Below are positions 6,317-61,719 of a DNA stretch of 64,000 bases, piece after piece (the first letter of the stretch is position 1; every line of letters starts with the position of its first letter). The translations under genes were made by a program, and so were the position numbers. Source of the DNA: Natronococcus sp. CG52 (lineage in GTDB: Archaea > Halobacteriota > Halobacteria > Halobacteriales > Natrialbaceae); the NCBI RefSeq assembly GCF_023913515.1, contig NZ_CP099391.1, positions 930,001-994,000 on the forward strand, in the 5' to 3' direction. The notes under the pieces were generated by a model. The model saw only the letters and a list, made by a program, of their open reading frames with translations. It did no database searches and was not told where the DNA came from.

Positions 6317-7501
6317 TTACCTGGCGATCGGCTCGAGTTCCACCCGATACTCGGTCAGGTTCTCGTAGCCGTCCTCGGTGACGACGACGAGGTCCTCGAT
6401 TCGGACGCCGCCCACCTCGGGGTCGTAGATGCCGGGCTCGATCGTGATCACGTGGCCCGGCTCGAGTTCTCCGCCCGTCGGGGCGACGCTCGGCTGCTCG
6501 TGGATGTCCAGCCCGACGCCGTGGCCGGTGCTGTGGATGAATCCCGTCTCGGCGTTCGGATTACTCCGGAGGCTGTCGTAACCGGCCTTCTCGATCACGT
6601 CGCAGGCCGCGTCGTGGACGTCGGAGCCGGTAACGCCCGCCTCGATGGTCTCGAGTGCGGCCTCGAACGCCTCCTCGGTAACGTCGTACCGCCGGCGCGC
6701 CTCGTCGCTCGGCTCGCCGCGGGCGAACGTGCGGGTCATGTCGCCGAAGTATCCGGTCTGCTTGTCCCGCGGGAAGATGTCGATCACGATCAGCTCGTTC
6801 GCCTCGAGCGTGCCGCTGCCGCGGTTGTGCGGGTCGGCGCCGTCCGGGCCGCATGCGACGATCGTTTCGTCGAGCGCACAGCCGTGACGCAGGAGGGTGA
6901 TCTCGATCTTCTCCTTGACGTCCTCGCTGGTCAGCGGTTCGTCGCCGTGGACGAGGACCCCGTCCTCGACGGCAGCCGTCGCGATGAGTTCCTCGGCGAC
7001 GGCCATCGCGGCCTCGTTGGCCTCCTGGGTCGCCCGGATCTGGTTCGTCTCCCAGGGGGTTTTCGTCGCTCGAATCCCCTCGACGACGCCTTCGGTCTCG
7101 GCCGCGACCGCGAGCCCCTGCTCTCGAAGACCGTCCGCGGTTCCCGTCGGGAAGTTCCGGGGCACCGCGATCGAGTCGACGTCGCGGTCCGCGAGGAAGG
7201 CGGCGATCGTTCGAATCGTTCCCTCGTACGAACCGTGTTCGGCGAGCAGTTCCTGGTAGTCGTACGCGGCGCGTCGCGTCACCGAGTCCGCCGTTGCCTC
7301 CTTCGTCGCCCGGCCGTACTCGAGGCCCGAAACGAGGAGGTGAACGTCGCCCTCCGCGGTCACCAGCGTCTGGTAGGCGTCCGGTGCGGTAAAGCCGGAG
7401 ACGTACCGCTGGTCGGAGTCCGAGGCGTCGTCGTCGATGAGGTAGCCGTCCGCTCCCTCGTCCTCGAGGGCGGCGAGAAGCGGCGCGAGGTCGATCTCCA
7501 T
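6317..7501 (-). CDS. M24-family metallopeptidase (Xaa-Pro aminopeptidase-like)
   Basis: 394 aa: an N-terminal creatinase/prolidase N domain (~1-140) and a C-terminal pita-bread catalytic domain. By eye alignment all five dinuclear metal ligands are present: the two Asp in [22 protein letters not shown] (with a 2-residue insertion between them compared with PepP), His in the TGHGVG segment, Glu in TIEPGIYDP and Glu in [11 protein letters not shown]. It probably removes residues N-terminal to proline from peptides in the cytoplasm. The ATG nine residues inside the longest frame was chosen, giving [16 protein letters not shown]. It contrasts with the ligand-poor M24 protein at 47726. Confidence 0.85.
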
Positions 7502-7592
7502 GTGGTGGCTTGTGCAATCACTCCACATAATTGCGCGGGTTGCGGAACGGCGGTCCGCCGGTTCCGCTAATCGCGTGCGAGACGGCCGGCCG

Positions 7593-43244: not shown

Positions 43245-43679
43245 ATGACTGTACGTGTCGACCGGTCGTTCGAGGTGCCGGCGCCTCCCGAGCGCGTCTG
43301 GGAGTTTATCTCCGATCCGGCGAACCGGGCGCAGGCGATCAGCGTGGTACAGGAGTACTCCATCGACGATGCGGACGGTCGCCGCGCGACCTGGCACGTC
43401 GAGTTACCGATTCCGCTCGTCCGGCAGACGGTCGCCGTCGAGACCGAAGACATCACCCGCCGCCCGCCCGAGTACGTCAAGTTCGTCGGAAACTCGAAGG
43501 GGCTGACGGTGACGGGCGAGCACGAGATCGTCGAAACGGAGGGCGGCAGTCGTCTCGAGAACCACTTCGTCGTCGACGGAAAGCTCCCGGGCGTCGAGAA
43601 GTTCTTCAAACGGAATCTGGACGAGGAACTCGAGAACCTCCGCCGCGAACTCGAGCGGGATCTCCAGACCACACAATGA
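43245..43679 (+). CDS. SRPBCC-family (CoxG-like) protein
   Basis: 144 aa with MTVRVDRSFEVPAPPERVWEFISDPANR at the N terminus and a C-terminal helix ending LENLRRELERDLQTTQ. Typical single-domain SRPBCC ligand-binding fold. Its stop overlaps the nitrilase start by 4 nt, so the two form an operon. Confidence 0.8.
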   Translation: MTVRVDRSFEVPAPPERVWEFISDPANRAQAISVVQEYSIDDADGRRATWHVELPIPLVRQTVAVETEDITRRPPEYVKFVGNSKGLTVTGEHEIVETEGGSRLENHFVVDGKLPGVEKFFKRNLDEELENLRRELERDLQTTQ

Positions 43680-44797: not shown

Positions 44798-46333
44798 TTA
44801 GTCGTCTCGCGTCACGATATCCGCCGACAGCCCCTGTGCCATCTCGATATCCTTGGAGTTGTTCAGCGTCCAGGCGGTGCGCTCGGTGACGGCCTCGATG
44901 GCCTCTCGAGCCGAGGGGTAGCCGTTGCCGGATTTCTTCACGCCGCCGAAGGGAAGCTGGACCTCCGCGCCGATACACGGCAAGTTCGCGTACGCGAGGC
45001 CGATTTCGGCGCGATCGCGGAAGTAGTTGATCTGGCGGTAGTCCTCCGAGATGATCGCGCCAGCCAGCCCGTAAGGCGTGTCGTTGTGGATTTCGACGGC
45101 GTCCTCGATGTCACCCGAGTACTCGATCAGGGCGACGTGGGGACCGAAACACTCCTCCTGGAGACAGCGCAGGTCGGAGTCGTACTCGATCTCGTAGACG
45201 AACGGCCCGACCCAGTGGCCGTCCTCGTGACCCTCCGGGATCTCGTCGTCCTCGAGTTCGAACCGGTCGACGAGCACGTTGGCACCCTCCTGCTGGGCGA
45301 GTTCGTTGTGTTTGCGGATCTTCTCGACGTGCTCGGCCTCGATGGCCGGCCCCATGAACGTGTCCTCCTCCAGGGGGTCGCCGACCGCGACGTCCTCGGC
45401 GATATCGACGTACCGCTCCTTGAACTCGTCGTAGACGTCCTCGTGGACGATCAGGCGCTCGCTCGAGACGCAGCGCTGGCCGGTCGTCTTGAAACTCGAC
45501 ATGATCGCCGAGTGGACGGCCATGTCCAGATCCGCCTCCTCGGTGATGACGATCCCGTTCTTGCCGCCCATCTCGCAGGCCGCGAGTTTGCCGGGTTCGC
45601 CGCCGACCTTGCCGGCGATCTCGTGACCGACCTCCGCGGAGCCGGTGAAGAGCACCGTATCGACGCGGCCGTCGTCGGTGATCGCCGCGCCGGCGTCGCC
45701 GAAGCCCTGGACCATGTTGAAGACGCCCTCGGGGATGCCCGACTCCTCCATCATTTCGGCGATGATCTGGCCGCACCACGGCGTCTGCTCGGCGGGCTTC
45801 CAGACGACCGTGTTGCCCTCGACGAGCGCGATGGCCATGTGCCAGAACGGGATCGCGACCGGGAAGTTCCAGGGCGTGATACAGCCGATGACGCCGCGGG
45901 GTTTCCGGCGCATGTAGGCGTCCTTCGAGCCGACCTCGCTCGGGACGAGGTCGCCGTGGGGGTGACGAGCGTTGCCGGCGGCCCACTCGACCATGTGCCA
46001 GGCTTCGGTGACATCGGCTTTCCCCTCCGAGATCTCCTTGCCGCACTCCTTGGAGACGACCTCGCCGAGTTCCTCGTGTCGCTCACGGAGCTCGTGGTAG
46101 ATGTCCCAGAGGTACTCCGCGCGGTCGATGTAGGAGAGGTTGCGCCACTCGTCGAAAGCGTCCTCGGCGGCCTCGAGTGCGGCGTCGACGTCGTCGGTCG
46201 TTCCGCGGTGGAACTCCGCGAGGGTCTCTCCCGTCGCCGGGTTCTCGCTCTCGAACGTCTCCGAACCCGTCCCCTTCGTCCACTCGCCACCGATGTAGTG
46301 CTCGTGGAGCTGAGCGCTGGTTTGCTGCGACAT
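44798..46333 (-). CDS. NAD(P)-dependent aldehyde dehydrogenase
   Basis: 511 aa. Motifs: NPATGETLAEFHRGT, the NAD region TPWNFPVAIPFWHMAIALVEG, FTGSAEVGHEIAGKVGG, catalytic Glu in ACEMGGKN and catalytic Cys in TTGQRCVSSERLIV. In this setting, upstream of a proline dehydrogenase remnant, an HTH-10 regulator and a symporter, it may be a P5C- or amino-acid-derived semialdehyde dehydrogenase, but only context says so. Confidence 0.9.
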   Translation of the reverse strand: MSQQTSAQLHEHYIGGEWTKGTGSETFESENPATGETLAEFHRGTTDDVDAALEAAEDAFDEWRNLSYIDRAEYLWDIYHELRERHEELGEVVSKECGKEISEGKADVTEAWHMVEWAAGNARHPHGDLVPSEVGSKDAYMRRKPRGVIGCITPWNFPVAIPFWHMAIALVEGNTVVWKPAEQTPWCGQIIAEMMEESGIPEGVFNMVQGFGDAGAAITDDGRVDTVLFTGSAEVGHEIAGKVGGEPGKLAACEMGGKNGIVITEEADLDMAVHSAIMSSFKTTGQRCVSSERLIVHEDVYDEFKERYVDIAEDVAVGDPLEEDTFMGPAIEAEHVEKIRKHNELAQQEGANVLVDRFELEDDEIPEGHEDGHWVGPFVYEIEYDSDLRCLQEECFGPHVALIEYSGDIEDAVEIHNDTPYGLAGAIISEDYRQINYFRDRAEIGLAYANLPCIGAEVQLPFGGVKKSGNGYPSAREAIEAVTERTAWTLNNSKDIEMAQGLSADIVTRDD

Positions 46334-46872
46334 ATCTTCTAGTTAGGTACCGATCCTATGTAATTCCCACCGATCATGGTCTCCCGTGCGCCGGCGCTTT
46401 ATTTCTCGATCGTGATATTCTAACGAGTTGGTCGGATAGTGGCTTATGGTGATCGTCTCGCGGATCTAGGACGAATGATTCCGCCTATCGTGAACACGTC
46501 CGTCGCGGGGGAGACACCCGTCGAGGCACTCGAGCGCACAGCCGGTCAACGAGCAGAGCGTCACCGCGATCTGTAACTTGCTCGGCGATTATCGCCCGTG
46601 CCCGGCGGATACACAAAATCACGGGACACCGTACGAGGTACAGATGGTGATGGGCGTCCGGACCGACGCACAGCACGAACTGGCCGCCGAGAGCGTCGAC
46701 GTCTACCAGTATGTACCCTACGACTTTTAGGTGGTTTTACTACTTCTACCGACAGGTCCGCGAGCGGAAGGCGAATTTCGTCTTTGCCCTCCGGGCGATC
46801 CTGAATTGACTGGCGCAACGAGCTATAACGGACTACTGCTACGACTCGAAATATAAACTACTGCTGCGGCGC
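46334..46872. other. 540-nt region with a decayed gene, no intact gene
   Basis: Its right part is a proline dehydrogenase remnant (separate entry). The left ~225 nt, next to the ALDH start, is AT-richer (CTTTATTTCTCGATCGTGATA) and is likely the ALDH promoter region. Confidence 0.55.
46560..46809 (+). pseudogene. C-terminal remnant of proline dehydrogenase
   Basis: The frame ending at 46729 reads YEVQMVMGVRTDAQHELAAE then VDVYQYVPYDF and stop. One base later another frame reads WFYYFYRQVRERKANFVFAL. Together they match the PRODH C-terminal pattern FEFQMLxGVRxDxQxELA...VPYGxxWxxYFYRRxxERxxN. The frameshift and the loss of the TIM-barrel N terminus mark a pseudogene. It lies just upstream of the convergent HTH-10 regulator and between an ALDH and transport genes, as in proline-utilisation clusters. 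Confidence 0.7.
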
Positions 46873-47595
46873 CTACGGATCCAACAGCTTCGACTCGGCC
46901 GTCCGCAGGTGTTCGAGCAGCGTCGACTTCGCGATATCGAGGTCGTCGGCTAGTTCGCGCGTCGTTATCTCTCGGGGCCACTCGTAGTAGCCCGCCTCTC
47001 GGGCGTGCTCGAACACCTCGCGCTGGGCCGTCGTGAGCGTGTCGAGGCGCTGGTTGCGGGACGAACGATCGGCCGTATCGGCGGTCGTGATCGAGGTAAC
47101 GGTAACCTCTGAACCAGTCTCTTCGCGGACGTTGTCCAGAGACTCCTGAATTCCGGACCGGTCACCGGCGAAACACAGGTTCCACACCTCGCTGCCGCCC
47201 TGGATGTGAACCGGTGCGCTGTGGACGAACCCGTTCTCGAGCAGCGTCGGACAGATCATCTCGTCGGGATCGTACTCGAGGAAGAACTCGCGGGCGACGT
47301 TCCCCGGTGCGTTGCGTGCGCGTCCGAATCGTTCTTGCAGCGCGAACAATTCTCCGGAGTGTTCGGAGTCGCGAATCGCGTTCAGGAGATCCCGAACCTC
47401 GGCGGTCGTGTCGCCGAACGCCGTAAACAACCCCTTGACCGTCTTCGGACTGCTTCCGTCCGTTTTCGGAGAATTATAGACCGCGTGAGCGAGCACCCCG
47501 CCCCCCGTTCGATCGGTTGCTTCGATGGCCCAGCAGTTCGGATGCCACAGATCGAGGGTCAACCGAACGCTCGATACCTCGCCCTTCGTACTCAT
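46873..47595 (-). CDS. HTH-10 (bacterio-opsin activator-like) regulator
   Basis: 240 aa. A ~180-residue N-terminal bat-type sensory region (VRLTLDLWHPNCWAIEATD...) is followed by the HTH-10 domain LTTAQREVFEHAREAGYYEW then RELADDLDIAKSTLLEHLR. Such regulators control local catabolic genes in haloarchaea. The decayed PRODH suggests it once ruled proline catabolism; it may now act on the ALDH or M24 genes. Confidence 0.85.
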   Translation of the reverse strand: MSTKGEVSSVRLTLDLWHPNCWAIEATDRTGGGVLAHAVYNSPKTDGSSPKTVKGLFTAFGDTTAEVRDLLNAIRDSEHSGELFALQERFGRARNAPGNVAREFFLEYDPDEMICPTLLENGFVHSAPVHIQGGSEVWNLCFAGDRSGIQESLDNVREETGSEVTVTSITTADTADRSSRNQRLDTLTTAQREVFEHAREAGYYEWPREITTRELADDLDIAKSTLLEHLRTAESKLLDP

Positions 47596-47725: not shown

Positions 47726-48898
47726 TCAAACGATCAGGCTCTCGAGATCGCGCGGATAGTACGTCAGCGTCTCCGTTCCGTTTTCGGTCACCAGCACCGT
47801 GTCGGAGTGCCGAAAGCCGCCCAGGTCGGGGACGTAGAACCCGGGCTCGACCGTGAACAGTTCGCCCGGTCGGATCTCGCCCTCCTGATCGACGTCGAGA
47901 AACGGCCGTTCGTGACCTTCCATGCCGATGTTGTGGCCGACGTGGTGTTGGGTGTACTCGGCGACCCCCTGCTCCTCGTAGTAGTTGACGACCGCCTCTT
48001 CGACGGCGGCGTACTCGACGCCCGGCTCGATCGCGTCGATCGCGATTTCCTGGGACTCTTTCATGATTTCGAAGTACGTCCGCTGATCGTCCGACGCCTC
48101 GCCGACGAACATCGTCCGCTCGAGTTCAGTTGTGTAGCCGCCGACATTTGGTTTGACGATGGTGACGATATTGTCGCCGCGTTCGATTCTCGTCGTCTGG
48201 TCCTTGTTGTGCGGGAGCGCGGTCACGTCACCGGTTGTAAACATGCATTGCATCGGGTTCGCCCACGTTCGCATCTCGTACCGGTTGCCGAGCGTGTCGA
48301 GCATCGTCTTGACGGCTTCGGCCTCGACTTCCGCACGAACTTCGATCGGTCGCCGGCCGACTTCGATCCGTTCTTGCAGGAGTTGGTGACCGAGGTTGGC
48401 CCAGACGCTGGCCTCCCGAATGAGTTCGATCTCGCGGTCGCTTTTCGTCTCCCGCATGTCGGTCACGTACTCCTCAACGCCGACGTCCGCGTCGACGAGT
48501 TCCGAGAGTGCGGGGCCGGTGTACCCGTTTCGCGCCGGACTCCCGTCAGAATCGACTGCAATCGTACCGTCGGCAATCCCAAGCCGGTCACATATTTCAG
48601 CAACCGACTTCATCGGTTCGCCCTGAGGATAATCGAAGTACGAAATCACATCATCGATCAGAAACTCATCCCGGGCGGCGTGCTCCCGTTCTAGACGAGG
48701 AACGACCGCTTCGACTCGCTCGTCGGTAAGACCGAGCGCGACCGGCCGCTCCGTCGGAAGATGGTACATCCCGCTTACGTAGTGAATGTTTAACGATCCA
48801 AATAGAACGAGGCCGTCGTATCCATCCGCTTTAGCGCGCTCCAGTAACTTTTGTTTTCGCTCGCGATATTCTGATTTGGGAATCGTGAGATCTGACAT
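47726..48898 (-). CDS. creatinase-like M24-family protein with degenerate metal site
   Basis: 390 aa with the creatinase N domain and pita-bread fold. By eye, three of five M24 metal ligands are lost: the Asp pair region is IVKPNVGGYTTELERTMF (no first Asp; second is Glu), and the last Glu is Ser in GGFRHSDTVLV. His in HHVGHNIGMEGHE and Glu in VEPGFYVP remain. Creatinases, which hydrolyse creatine without metal, show the same GYYTALERT pattern. A metal-free C-N hydrolase or a peptidase-like function on amidino or N-methyl compounds is possible. Divergent from the SSS symporter. Confidence 0.8.
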   Translation of the reverse strand: MSDLTIPKSEYRERKQKLLERAKADGYDGLVLFGSLNIHYVSGMYHLPTERPVALGLTDERVEAVVPRLEREHAARDEFLIDDVISYFDYPQGEPMKSVAEICDRLGIADGTIAVDSDGSPARNGYTGPALSELVDADVGVEEYVTDMRETKSDREIELIREASVWANLGHQLLQERIEVGRRPIEVRAEVEAEAVKTMLDTLGNRYEMRTWANPMQCMFTTGDVTALPHNKDQTTRIERGDNIVTIVKPNVGGYTTELERTMFVGEASDDQRTYFEIMKESQEIAIDAIEPGVEYAAVEEAVVNYYEEQGVAEYTQHHVGHNIGMEGHERPFLDVDQEGEIRPGELFTVEPGFYVPDLGGFRHSDTVLVTENGTETLTYYPRDLESLIV

Positions 48899-49039
48899 CA
48901 AGTGCCACCTGGTATGTACCACTATTAAAATTAGACCCGACTATGGACCCGTCCTAATATTATATAAAATCCTATGTATCTAATTGGGAAATTATTGGTC
49001 GGCCGTGTATTTAACACCCATGTTTTCTATTCCCACAGT

Positions 49040-50449
49040 ATGGCAGTTGAGAGTAACATTACCTTACTATACATCGTCGGCGCGTATTTGGTCGTAATGC
49101 TCGGCGTTGGCGTCTGGGCGTACGGAAAAACGAATACTGCAGAGGACTTCATGGTCGCTGGCCGAAGCCTTGGCGCGGTGATCATCGCCGGGACGCTGCT
49201 CGCGACGTGGATGGGTTCCGGAACGATAACTGGCAGTAGGAACTCGGTTGCATATGGTAATGGGCTATTGCCTGCGATGCTCCTCGCAACAGGATCACTC
49301 ATCGGTATCGGTTGTCTGAAGGCGCTCGCGCCGCGGATTCGGAGTTTCGACAAACTGACGATTCCCGCGATGATTGAGGAAGAGTTGGGCAAAGAAGGCC
49401 GAATCATCAGTCTGCTCGTGATTGCGTTCGCATATGTTGGGATCGTTTCTTACCAGTTCATCGGGCTCGGGTTTGTTTTGAATGTCACAGCCGGTATCTC
49501 GATCGAACAGGGGACGATCATTGGGGCAGTCATTATCATTGTACTTGCGGCGATAGGCGGACTCATGTCGGTTGCATACACCGACGCAATTAGCGCCTTC
49601 TTGATGCTCGGCGGTCTCGTGGTCGCAGTTCCGTTCGTAATCGTCGAGGCAGGGGGTTGGGCGGAAATCACCGCGAACGTACCCGAAACCCACCTCGATA
49701 CGCTCGGGGATCTCTCTTTCCTCGAGTTCTTCGCGCTCTGGGCACCACCGCTTCTATTGCTTCTCGGCGATCAGAACATGTATCAGCGCATCATCGCCGG
49801 CGAAACTGACGAAGGGACCAATACAGGAATCGTTGCTTGGTTCGTCGGCGTTATCGCGTCGGCGATACTGATTCCTGTGATCGCGTTTTCCTCGCGCGCG
49901 ATGTTTCCTGAACTCGACCCAGGAATGGCCCTGATCGCGACGACGACGGTAATTCCGACCTGGATCGGCGGCATCCTTCTGGCCGCCGCCGCGGCGTTTA
50001 TCGTCACGACCGGTAGCTCCTACCTGCTTTCGGCCTGTACGAACCTCTCTCAAGACCTTTACGGGGAGTTTATCAATCCCGGCGCCTCCGATGAGCAAAT
50101 TTTCTTGCTGACCCGAGCGTTCGTGGTGATCCTCGGGATCTTCGCGTTCGTTCTCGGGCAGTACTTCCCGACCGTCCTCGAGGTCCAGATGTACTCGTAC
50201 ACGGCCTACGGAGCCGCGATCACGCCCCCGCTGCTGGCGATCTTCCTGATGCGGGAGCGACTGACCAAACTCGGCGGTCTCTCCGGGATGATCGTCGGCG
50301 CTCTGCTCGCGATCACGTGGGACACGGTGCTCGCAAGTCCGTACGGGCTGGATGCGGTGATCGTCGCGGCGCCGATCGGCGGACTGCTCATCGTCGTCGT
50401 CAGCTACCTCACGGGTAGTTCATCGACGCCGTCGGCGGCTCGCGCCTGA
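49040..50449 (+). CDS. sodium:solute symporter (SSS family)
   Basis: 469 aa with ~13 transmembrane helices. Recognisable segments are YGKTNTAEDFMVAGRSLG, ATWMGSGTITGSRNSVAYGNG (Na+-binding region) and LLLLLGDQNMYQRIIAGET. Likely imports the substrate of the divergent M24 protein (proline-containing, betaine or creatine-like compounds). Its AT-rich 5' part has lower GC than flanking genes, which may reflect its membrane composition. Start ATG giving MAVESNITLLY. Confidence 0.88.
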   Translation: MAVESNITLLYIVGAYLVVMLGVGVWAYGKTNTAEDFMVAGRSLGAVIIAGTLLATWMGSGTITGSRNSVAYGNGLLPAMLLATGSLIGIGCLKALAPRIRSFDKLTIPAMIEEELGKEGRIISLLVIAFAYVGIVSYQFIGLGFVLNVTAGISIEQGTIIGAVIIIVLAAIGGLMSVAYTDAISAFLMLGGLVVAVPFVIVEAGGWAEITANVPETHLDTLGDLSFLEFFALWAPPLLLLLGDQNMYQRIIAGETDEGTNTGIVAWFVGVIASAILIPVIAFSSRAMFPELDPGMALIATTTVIPTWIGGILLAAAAAFIVTTGSSYLLSACTNLSQDLYGEFINPGASDEQIFLLTRAFVVILGIFAFVLGQYFPTVLEVQMYSYTAYGAAITPPLLAIFLMRERLTKLGGLSGMIVGALLAITWDTVLASPYGLDAVIVAAPIGGLLIVVVSYLTGSSSTPSAARA

Positions 50450-55598: not shown

Positions 55599-56855
55599 TT
55601 AGGGCCAACTGCCGCTTTCGTCGTAGGCGTCCGCGACGCGCTGGATCGCGACGACGTAGGCCGCTGTTCGGGGGTTGTCGAGGTCGCGTTCCTCGAGCGA
55701 GTCGACCAGCGCGTCGAAGGCGTCGACGATGAGGTCCTCGAGTTCCTCGTTGACTCGCTCCTCGGTCCAGTAGAAGCGCTGGCGGTTCTGCACCCACTCG
55801 AAGTACGAGACGGTGACACCGCCGGCGTTGGCGAGGATGTCCGGAACGACGAAGACGTCGCGCTCGGCGAGGGTGTCGTCCGCCTCGGGCGTCAGCGGCC
55901 CGTTTGCGGCCTCGGAGATGACGTCGGCCTCGACGTCCCGAGCGAGGTCGCCGTCGATCGCGTTCTCGAGGGCGGCGGGGATCAGCAGGTCCACGTCCAG
56001 CGTCAGGACGTCCTCGTTGGTGAGTTCCTCTTCGCTTTCCTCGTAGCCGACGACGGTGCCGGTCTCGCTCTTGTGGTCTTTCGCCGCAACCGGATCGAAG
56101 CCGTCGGGGTTGTAGATGCCGCCGCTCGAGTCGCTGGCGGCGACGACGGTCGCGCCCATCTCGTCCATCAGTTTGGCGGCGATCCAGCCGGCGTTGCCGT
56201 ACCCCTGGACCGCGACGGTCGCGCCCTCGAGGTCCTTGTCGAGGTAGTCGAAGGCTTCGCGGGCGGCGATAACGGTCGACCGACCGGTCGCCTCGACGCG
56301 GCCCTCGCTCCCGCCGCTGGCGAGGTTCTTGCCCGTGACGACGCCCGGTTCCGTGGTGTGTTCGAGCGTCTCGTAGGTGTCCTTGATCCAGTTCATCTCC
56401 CGCTGGCCCGTGTTCACGTCGGGTGCGGGGATGTCCCGATCTTCGCCGACCAGCGGACGGAGCTCGGTCGCGAACGCGCGGGTGACTCGCTCGAGTTCCG
56501 CCTCGGAGTACTCGCTCGGGTCGATGGCGATCCCTCCCTTCCCGCCGCCGTACGGGATATCCGCCGTCGCACACTTGTAGACCATCCACCCCGAGAGGGC
56601 CTTTACCTCGTCGCGGTTGACGTCCGGATGGTAGCGGATTCCGCCCTTGTACGGACCGCGGTCGCCGTTGAACTGCGAACGGAAGGCTTTGAACCGCTCG
56701 AGGGTGCCGTCGTCGAGTTCGACCGTGAGGTTCGTCTCGAGGACGCGCTCGGGGTGTTTGAGTCGCTCGATCACGTCCTCACTCACGTCGAGGTAGGCGG
56801 CAGCGTCGTCGATCTGTGACTGAAGACTTTCGAATGGATTCGCCTGCCCGGTCAT
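55599..56855 (-). CDS. glutamate dehydrogenase, copy 1
   Basis: 418 aa. [14 protein letters not shown] and [20 protein letters not shown] hold the substrate and catalytic Lys residues. [20 protein letters not shown] is the nucleotide-binding fingerprint, with GAT-type continuation, and [19 protein letters not shown] closes the active site. Converts glutamate to 2-oxoglutarate and ammonia (NAD or NADP not told by the sequence). A paralog with the same motifs lies at 60445, on the other side of the orc1/origin region. Confidence 0.92.
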
Positions 56856-60444: not shown

Positions 60445-61719
60445 CTACGGCCAGAGTCCGCGGGACTCGTGGGCTGCCGCGATCCGCGAGAGGGCGACTA
60501 AGTAGGCCGCGTCGCGCCAGGTAATATCTCGAGCGTCGTACTCCTCCCGGACGGCTCCCCAGGCGCGGAGCATCTCGGTCTCGAGTTCCTCGTGGACGCG
60601 CTCTAAGCTCCACGCGCGGCGGTTAATGTCCTGAAGCCACTCGAAGTAGCTCACCGTCACCCCGCCGGCGTTGGCGAGGATGTCCGGGATGACCGGGACG
60701 CCGCGCTCCTCGAAGATCTGATCGGCGGTCGAGGTCGTCGGTCCGTTCGCCCCCTCGATGATCAGATCGGCGCTGATCCTGCGAGCGTTCTCGCCGGTCA
60801 GCACGTTGCCGATCGCCGCTGGGATGAGGACGTCGACGTCGAGCTCGAGCAGTTCCGCGTTCGTGAGCGTCTCGGGGGCGTCGTAGCCCGAGACCATCCC
60901 CGGCGTCTCGTCGTGGTCCTCGACGTCGTTCGTATCGAAGCCGTCGGGGTTGTAGATCGCGCCGTCGACGTCCGACACCGCGACGATGGTCGCGCCGCGC
61001 TCGTCGAGATAGCGGGCCGCGTTGGCGCCGACGCTGCCGAAGCCCTGCACGGCGACGGTCGTGTTCTCGATGTCCCAGTCGTAGTACTCGATCGCTTCCC
61101 GTGCGACGATCCCGACGCTTCGGCCGGGCGCTTTCTCCCGTCCGTGGGAGCCGCCGACGACGGGCGGCTTTCCGGTGACGGCTCCCGGCGTGGTCTCTCC
61201 CTCCTGCATCGAGTAGGCGTCCATGAACCACGCCATCGTCTCCGGATCGGTCCCCATGTCGGGGGCGGGAATGTCTTTCATCGGACCGATGACCGGCCGG
61301 AGTTCTTCGGCGAATCGGCGGGTGAGCCGCTCCTTCTCCGTGTCGCTGAGTTCCTTCGGGTTGACGACGACACCCCCTTTCGCGCCGCCGAAGGGGAGAT
61401 CCATCACGGCGCACTTCCAGGTCATCCACATCGAGAGTCCGATGCACTCGTCTTCGTTCACGTCGGGGTGATAGCGCAGTCCGCCCTTGTACGGACCCCG
61501 GACGCTGTCGTGGTGGGCGCGGTACCCCGTGAACATCTCGGTGGTGCCGTCGTCGCGCTCGAGCGGGATCGTCACCCGATAGACGCTGGTCGGGTAACGC
61601 AGCCGTTCGACGATTCCCTCGTCGACGTCGAGGTGCGCGGCGGCACGCTCGAGTTGACGGCGGGCGGTTTCGACGGCGCTCTCTGCTTCCGGTTCCGATG
61701 TAGGTTCAGCAACTGTCAT
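60445..61719 (-). CDS. glutamate dehydrogenase, copy 2
   Basis: 424 aa. [56 protein letters not shown] and [19 protein letters not shown] mark it as GDH. Compared with copy 1 it has a longer N terminus ([11 protein letters not shown]) and Gly-Pro-Met instead of Gly-Glu-Asp before DIPAPD. The copies are clearly paralogs, not a recent duplication. Possibly one is NAD- and one NADP-dependent. Confidence 0.92.

Follow-up and report, generated by a model that had tools for sequence, protein, structure and literature searches.

A conserved M24-fold protein of haloarchaea and bacilli with three of five metal ligands replaced and a recurrent neighbourhood of proline catabolism genes

Among described proteins, those closest to the protein considered here (hereafter, the target) are creatinase (1chm, 1kp0, 7yto), archaeal prolidase/PepQ (1pv9, 1wy2, 3q6d, 4r60; NF040821), ectoine hydrolase DoeA/EutD (6twj, 6twk; TIGR02993), and the DMSP lyase DddP. 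Ectoine hydrolase, whose M24 fold lacks the set of metal ligands, acts on a small solute and is compared with creatinase in PMC3187862. DddP is also an M24 enzyme that is not a peptidase, but it differs from the target (34 bits against NF043017) in that its metal ligands are kept and iron is bound, as stated in PMC4108388. No paper connecting a metal-less M24 group with proline was found in the open-licence literature searched. The target gene is located at positions 47726..48898 (minus strand) of the window, i.e., the whole analyzed stretch of 64,000 nucleotides (G000:C1:930001-994000) from the haloarchaeon Natronococcus sp. CG52. Its ORF was genuine and extended over 47726..48922 if a GTG start was assumed, while the ATG at 48898, which gives a protein of 390 aa, was the start common to the target homologues. 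The Pfam domains Creatinase_N (46.9 bits) and Peptidase_M24 (140.6 bits against a PF00557 cut-off of 23) were identified in the product. Proteins of the target type are publicly annotated as Xaa-Pro peptidases, yet they are probably unable to hold metals as those enzymes do. If the reading preferred below is right, a broad set of archaeal and bacterial genes would encode a metal-free C–N hydrolase, which would show the move of one fold from metal to metal-free catalysis as well as the use of proline-rich material by halophiles.

Alignment of the target with P. furiosus prolidase 1pv9 and creatinase 1chm revealed that the first Asp ligand of metallo-M24 enzymes was replaced with Ile247 (codon 48158..48160; here and below, codons are on the minus strand), the second Asp with Glu258 (48125..48127; motif TTELERT), and the last Glu with Ser365 (47804..47806; motif FRHSDT), the last position being occupied by His376 in creatinase. 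The retained ligand positions were His322 (47933..47935; motif HHVGHN) and Glu351 (47846..47848; motif TVEPGF), and the complete set of Asp, Asp, His, Glu, and Glu characteristic of PF00557 metallopeptidases was thus absent. The same three replacements had been read in the first-pass annotation, and the M24 protein with which it had compared the target (6317..7528, minus strand; outside the target system) indeed had all five ligands in the alignment (IDIF, FGDMTRT, TGHG, IEPG, and RIED). The presence of the ligands at shifted positions was rejected by the alignments and by the replacement set E258/E260/H322/E351/S365, which was identical in all 29 homology-found members of two haloarchaeal groups, the target included. 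This set was also found in relatives from Bacillaceae, Alicyclobacillus, Deinococcus, and Asgard archaea, and in total in 132 of the 159 M24 sequences compared (matches spanning more than 250 residues, duplicates removed), where the count at Ser365 is inflated, partly by construction, since 76 of the 132 sequences came from a scan using the motif G[YF]RHSDT (the best 80 of 548 relatives were kept). Arg51, Glu258, Glu260, and the His residues were absent from the scan patterns, and the counts at these positions were unaffected. The other sequences had all ligands (15, plus one truncated) or belonged to the DoeA type (5), the creatinase type (3), and single variants (3). Position 247 was occupied by Ile or Gly in the metal-less branch. 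Because the replacement set is common to all 29 haloarchaeal members and to distant relatives, the loss of ligands is a fixed feature of the clade and not drift. The residues found support an active site that would be unable to hold the canonical dinuclear metal centre, and they make the metal independence suggested in the first-pass annotation plausible; a single metal might nevertheless be bound by the invariant Glu258 together with His322 and Glu351.

Two deviating sequences should be mentioned separately. In the close-group relative L201:8001-9188, the ELERT motif carried an insertion (KTGKLERT), with Lys instead of Glu258 and Cys instead of Ser365, and the neighbours were a gene annotated as N-methyl-L-tryptophan oxidase and a sodium/proline symporter gene. 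An odd M24 protein from the Natronococcus genome, own_L008 (G000:C1:1144749-1145390), had Cys in place of the second Asp ligand and Tyr in place of Glu260, the other ligands being kept.

The roles of the creatinase residues His232, Glu262, His324, Glu358, Arg335, and His376 are presumed here from the literature. The first four corresponded in the alignment with 1chm to His230 (48209..48211), Glu260 (48119..48121), His322, and Glu351 of the target, all of which were kept and invariant, and the earlier suggestion of a creatinase-like active site was in this respect borne out. The likeness of TTELERT to the YTALERT of creatinase, pointed out in the same annotation, was also evident, since 1chm reads GYYTALERT at this motif; Glu260 of LERT sits where metallo-M24 enzymes have Thr or Ser, exactly as in creatinase. 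In the N-terminal domain, Arg51 (48746..48748; motif TERPV) was aligned with the Arg of creatinase GRKY. Arg51, as well as His230, His329, Glu330, Arg363, and Asp366, was invariant in 132 of 132 metal-less sequences. Three of the metal ligands are missing from creatinase as well. At the same time, the target differed from creatinase in having His318, Glu258 in place of Ala, Ser365 in place of His376, proline-type gene neighbours, and no equivalent of Arg335. The residues of the second shell of prolidase, namely, His230, His318, His329, and Arg363, were all present. The target may be read as a creatinase-like core within a prolidase-like frame, and this core most likely works like that of creatinase.

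The target was modeled with AlphaFold2 using an alignment of 35 sequences (pLDDT 95.9, pTM 0.92). An overlay on creatinase had been proposed as a check, and in VIA-align the predicted structure ranked three creatinases first (1chm, 1kp0, and 7yto; Z 41.2–41.3, rmsd 2.2–2.4, 373–375 aligned residues), with the fold shared over the whole chain, narrowly ahead of X. campestris prolidase (Z 40.2), a difference near 1 being approximately a tie; ectoine hydrolase had a Z of 36.9. The identity of the target with creatinase was only 22–25%. In Foldseek, prolidases were first by E-value, and creatinase 1chm was first by query-length TM-score (0.87). By sequence, the nearest solved proteins were metallo-prolidases (1wy2, 2.6e-37; creatinase, 7.5e-25), although the target scored 132.1 bits against the archaeal prolidase profile NF040821, for which the cut-off is 630.

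Phylogenetic analysis was performed with 22 representatives of the 132 metal-less sequences, and a second tree was constructed after removal of the ligand columns and of the long branches own_L008 and L198. In the latter tree, the metal-less sequences were all separated from those of the metal type by one branch (bootstrap/SH-aLRT 87/85), and creatinase joined the target clade (88/91), neither branch reaching the level of 95. Ectoine hydrolase was grouped in the same metal-less assemblage as the target and creatinase without strong support. The topology is compatible with a single loss of the metal site, which is possible. Taken as a whole, the target most likely represents a distinct M24 branch, a cytoplasmic hydrolase that is not a canonical M24 metallopeptidase. 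This branch is conserved and widely distributed.

In the window, the target gene is divergent from a gene for a PutP-like sodium:solute symporter (48974..50449, plus strand; homologues start at 49040), in agreement with the first-pass annotation, which had named an SSS symporter here. The symporter scored 153.3 bits against TIGR02121 (PutP), below the cut-off of 515.5, and this was still its best-scoring family. The pairing with the symporter is real, as a directly divergent symporter gene was found in 18 of 25 distinct close-group loci (hand count: the window, L039–L044, L069–L071, L094–L104, L121, L122, L125, and L126; the count excludes L105, where the copy is decayed, and the same-genome repeats L114–L120, L123, and L124). 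On the other side of the target gene are a regulator of the HTH_10 (bacterio-opsin-activator) type (46873..47595, minus strand), a remnant of a proline dehydrogenase gene with its N- and C-terminal pieces and a deleted middle (46436..46806, plus strand), and an aldehyde dehydrogenase gene (44798..46333, minus strand), which is P5C-dehydrogenase-like by position and below every NCBIfam cut-off. The regulator and aldehyde dehydrogenase genes flanking the remnant are both open, and the genome has three further Pro_dh matches elsewhere. A carbon–nitrogen hydrolase gene at 43676 was considered as a part of the system and rejected, as it is retained where the M24 gene is absent (L106).

The gene order in Natrialbaceae was the M24 gene with the symporter gene, followed by the genes for HTH_10, proline dehydrogenase (Pro_dh, 107.6 bits), and aldehyde dehydrogenase. 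The proline dehydrogenase gene was present at the place of the remnant in five other genomes, one copy being open only from an internal Met14, i.e., in 5 of 11 such loci (L040, L041, L100, L102, and L103); in L102, there was a stop at codon 10, ahead of the start used by relatives. Only remnants of it were seen in L094, L098, and the window, and no copy was found in L095, L097, and L099. The gene was therefore broken or absent in 6 of 11 loci, while the M24–symporter pair persisted, and an HTH_10–proline dehydrogenase–aldehyde dehydrogenase operon without the M24 gene was present in L106, L108, and L110–L112. Thus, the link between the M24 gene and the proline operon is not obligatory.

The recurrent neighbours of target-type genes were genes for proline dehydrogenase, P5C dehydrogenase, PutP-like symporters, dipeptide-type ABC transporters, and metallo-M24 proteins. 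In Natrialba magadii and two relatives, a member of the second haloarchaeal group adjoined the same kind of regulator–proline dehydrogenase–aldehyde dehydrogenase operon. In two of these three, N. magadii included, the locus also contained genes for a dipeptide-type ABC transporter and a metallo-M24 protein. A DUF1028 gene (L200:4513-5199) was observed within the dipeptide ABC operon of N. magadii beside the metal-less M24 gene. A single cluster of Halolamina salifodinae contained genes for proline dehydrogenase, a metallo-M24 protein, the target homologue, a second metal-less M24 protein, and an amidohydrolase resembling Xaa-Pro dipeptidase, and a P5C dehydrogenase gene lay at some distance on the same contig. 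The Haloprofundus copy of this amidohydrolase scored 254 bits against a cut-off of 500. A single contig of 114 kb in the genome G031 carried two metallo-M24 genes, a second-group member, and genes for PutP (293 bits, cut-off 515), both P5C dehydrogenase and proline dehydrogenase, a dipeptide ABC transporter, and glycine cleavage; the close-group member, on the same contig, adjoined a DPP-IV-type S9 peptidase gene near the glycine cleavage genes.

In Bacillaceae, the target-type gene was located downstream of a dipeptide ABC operon, and proline dehydrogenase was found in L177, L217, and L218, the last locus having P5C dehydrogenase (896 bits, above the cut-off) and proline dehydrogenase upstream of the M24 gene. 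Three tandem metal-less M24 copies were found in L217 (8343-11929) and two in each of L215 and L216, each copy being about 70% identical to the query, and these tandems possibly reflect specialization or mixed oligomers. Between the M24 genes and proline dehydrogenase of L217 is a gene for an isochorismatase-family hydrolase (L217:7531-8352) resembling RutB and biuret hydrolase, with relatives in L215 and L216, which would fit a carbamoyl- or amidino-proline chemistry. Target-type genes with no proline gene nearby were common. The loci of Deinococcus and Alicyclobacillus had other neighbours; in Deinococcus, peptide-type ABC genes were present and no proline gene was seen. Furthermore, 44 of the best 80 of 548 relatives were haloarchaeal second-group loci showing only the M24 gene among the neighbours queried.

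As a control, 10 Bacillales genomes carrying the gene were examined (Bacillales is used here as a label for the order of the Cytobacillus genome behind L165); 14 metal-less genes were distinguished by their positions, and the comparison set comprised 59 other M24 genes, one of which (G471:C1:547160) was a fragment with a stop. Proline dehydrogenase lay within 10 kb in 3 of 10 metal-less loci versus 1 of 59 other M24 genes (Fisher p = 0.008) and within 40 kb in 6 of 10 versus 3 of 59 (p = 0.0001); these p-values are guides only, since the test takes related genomes as independent and L177, one of the three cases within 10 kb, was known beforehand. The neighbours suggest proline, not creatine.

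Our preferred reading, held tentatively and somewhat short of an even balance of belief, is that the target is a creatinase-type, probably metal-free C–N hydrolase by which proline is released from a compound taken up by the cell, either an N-substituted proline or one of the Xaa-Pro kind. The dinuclear metal site would have been dismantled and replaced by the fixed set of Ile/Gly247, Glu258, Glu260, His322, Glu351, and Ser365, and the divergent PutP-like Na+ symporter would import the N-substituted proline or a small Xaa-Pro-type compound. As in creatinase, His230 would activate water or the scissile nitrogen, Glu260 and Glu351 would hold a polar or cationic group of the substrate, and Arg51 and Arg363 would bind its carboxylate. 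The bond cut may be a C–N bond to a secondary amine, with proline or a close imino acid as the leaving group. The released proline would pass through proline dehydrogenase and P5C dehydrogenase, the decayed local copy of the former being accompanied by others in the genome. A plain prolidase role for the metal-less enzyme is unlikely because prolidase-type metallo-M24 genes are often next door. A bolder form, which we hold to be rather unlikely, is that of a third metal-free pita-bread hydrolase lineage, besides creatinase and ectoine hydrolase, which would cut a proline amide bond as an imidodipeptide or proline-diketopiperazine (cyclic Xaa-Pro) hydrolase, and which would share dedicated catabolic islands with a metallo-prolidase and with proline dehydrogenase in haloarchaea, Bacillaceae, and other groups. 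A cyclic dipeptide as the substrate is a guess that would account for the adjoining prolidase-type M24 genes. To our knowledge, metal-free hydrolysis of a peptide bond by an M24 fold has no known example so far.

The strongest competitor of the metal-free reading, which we judge unlikely, is a metal-dependent Xaa-Pro dipeptidase, i.e., an ordinary imidodipeptidase with one ion on Glu258, His322, and Glu351. It is consistent with the sequence proximity of prolidases, their second-shell residues in the target, the dipeptide ABC transporters and proline catabolism genes alongside, and the invariance of Glu258 in 132 of 132 sequences; moreover, a Pyrococcus prolidase without added metal keeps 20% relative activity according to PMC2814137. 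However, Ile or Gly at the first Asp position and Ser at the last Glu position take away two ligands, the latter Glu being common to both metals in aminopeptidase P (PMC5774706). Glu260, as in creatinase, also stands in the place of the Thr or Ser of metallo-M24 enzymes, and in several loci prolidase-type metallo-M24 genes adjoin the target-type gene.

That the target functions as a creatinase is improbable in our estimation. In this reading, creatine or a different guanidino compound would be cleaved into urea plus sarcosine or some other N-alkyl amino acid, which would then be processed by FAD oxidases and glycine cleavage. The reading is in line with the rank of the fold and the common catalytic residues, as well as with SoxB/SolA-type FAD oxidase genes near some members (L126, L128, L201, and L223), glycine cleavage genes near one member, and a creatininase-family gene adjoining the Alicyclobacillus members. 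The Alicyclobacillus protein, however, was only 25% identical to the creatininase of a creatinase operon, and a true creatinine operon was rejected for these loci. Arg335 and His376 of creatinase are not conserved, overall identity to creatinase is low, and the recurrent neighbour is proline dehydrogenase. The amidinohydrolase activity proposed in the first-pass annotation was accordingly not upheld: the two residues are not kept, no creatinine operon was seen in the loci compared, and the recurrent neighbours are of the proline type.

That the target is a catalytically dead M24 protein with a sensing or scaffolding role, like the M24 domain of Spt16, is very improbable. The lost ligands and the structural matches to Spt16 N-terminal domains (Z of at most 33.2) agree with it, whereas the invariance of His, Glu, and Arg residues of the active site in both archaea and bacteria, the catabolic operon settings, and the tandem copies beside transporters speak against it. 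The probability that the target is an ectoine hydrolase (DoeA/EutD) is close to nil and this assignment was rejected, since, in spite of the common metal-less assemblage in the trees, TIGR02993 gave it only 52 bits (cut-off 613), a separate DoeA-like gene is present in the same genome (G000:C1:2954771-2955928; 466.9 bits, also below the cut-off), and the DoeA-like residue set (E, P, A, Y, I, and S) differs from that of the target at five of six compared positions.

Within the class, 51 of 145 genomes had DoeA-like genes, none of them above the TIGR02993 cut-off. Target-type genes are common among haloarchaea, and their occurrence in bacilli is sporadic: a match to either haloarchaeal group (E ≤ 1e-60) was obtained in 66 of 146 genomes of the window's order, the close group was found in 15 of 125 genomes of the window's family (E ≤ 1e-150), and a close relative of the bacillar form was found in 9 of 299 genomes of the Cytobacillus order. 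The genome of Natronococcus sp. CG52 had 11 PF00557 matches, including a second-group paralogue (C1:3019207, 49% identical to the target) and a more distant metal-less paralogue (C1:2557399). Apart from the target system, the window contained two glutamate dehydrogenase paralogues approximately 4 kb apart, of which that at 55599-56855 is below the GdhB_Halo cut-off and that at 60445-61719 passes it (768 bits).
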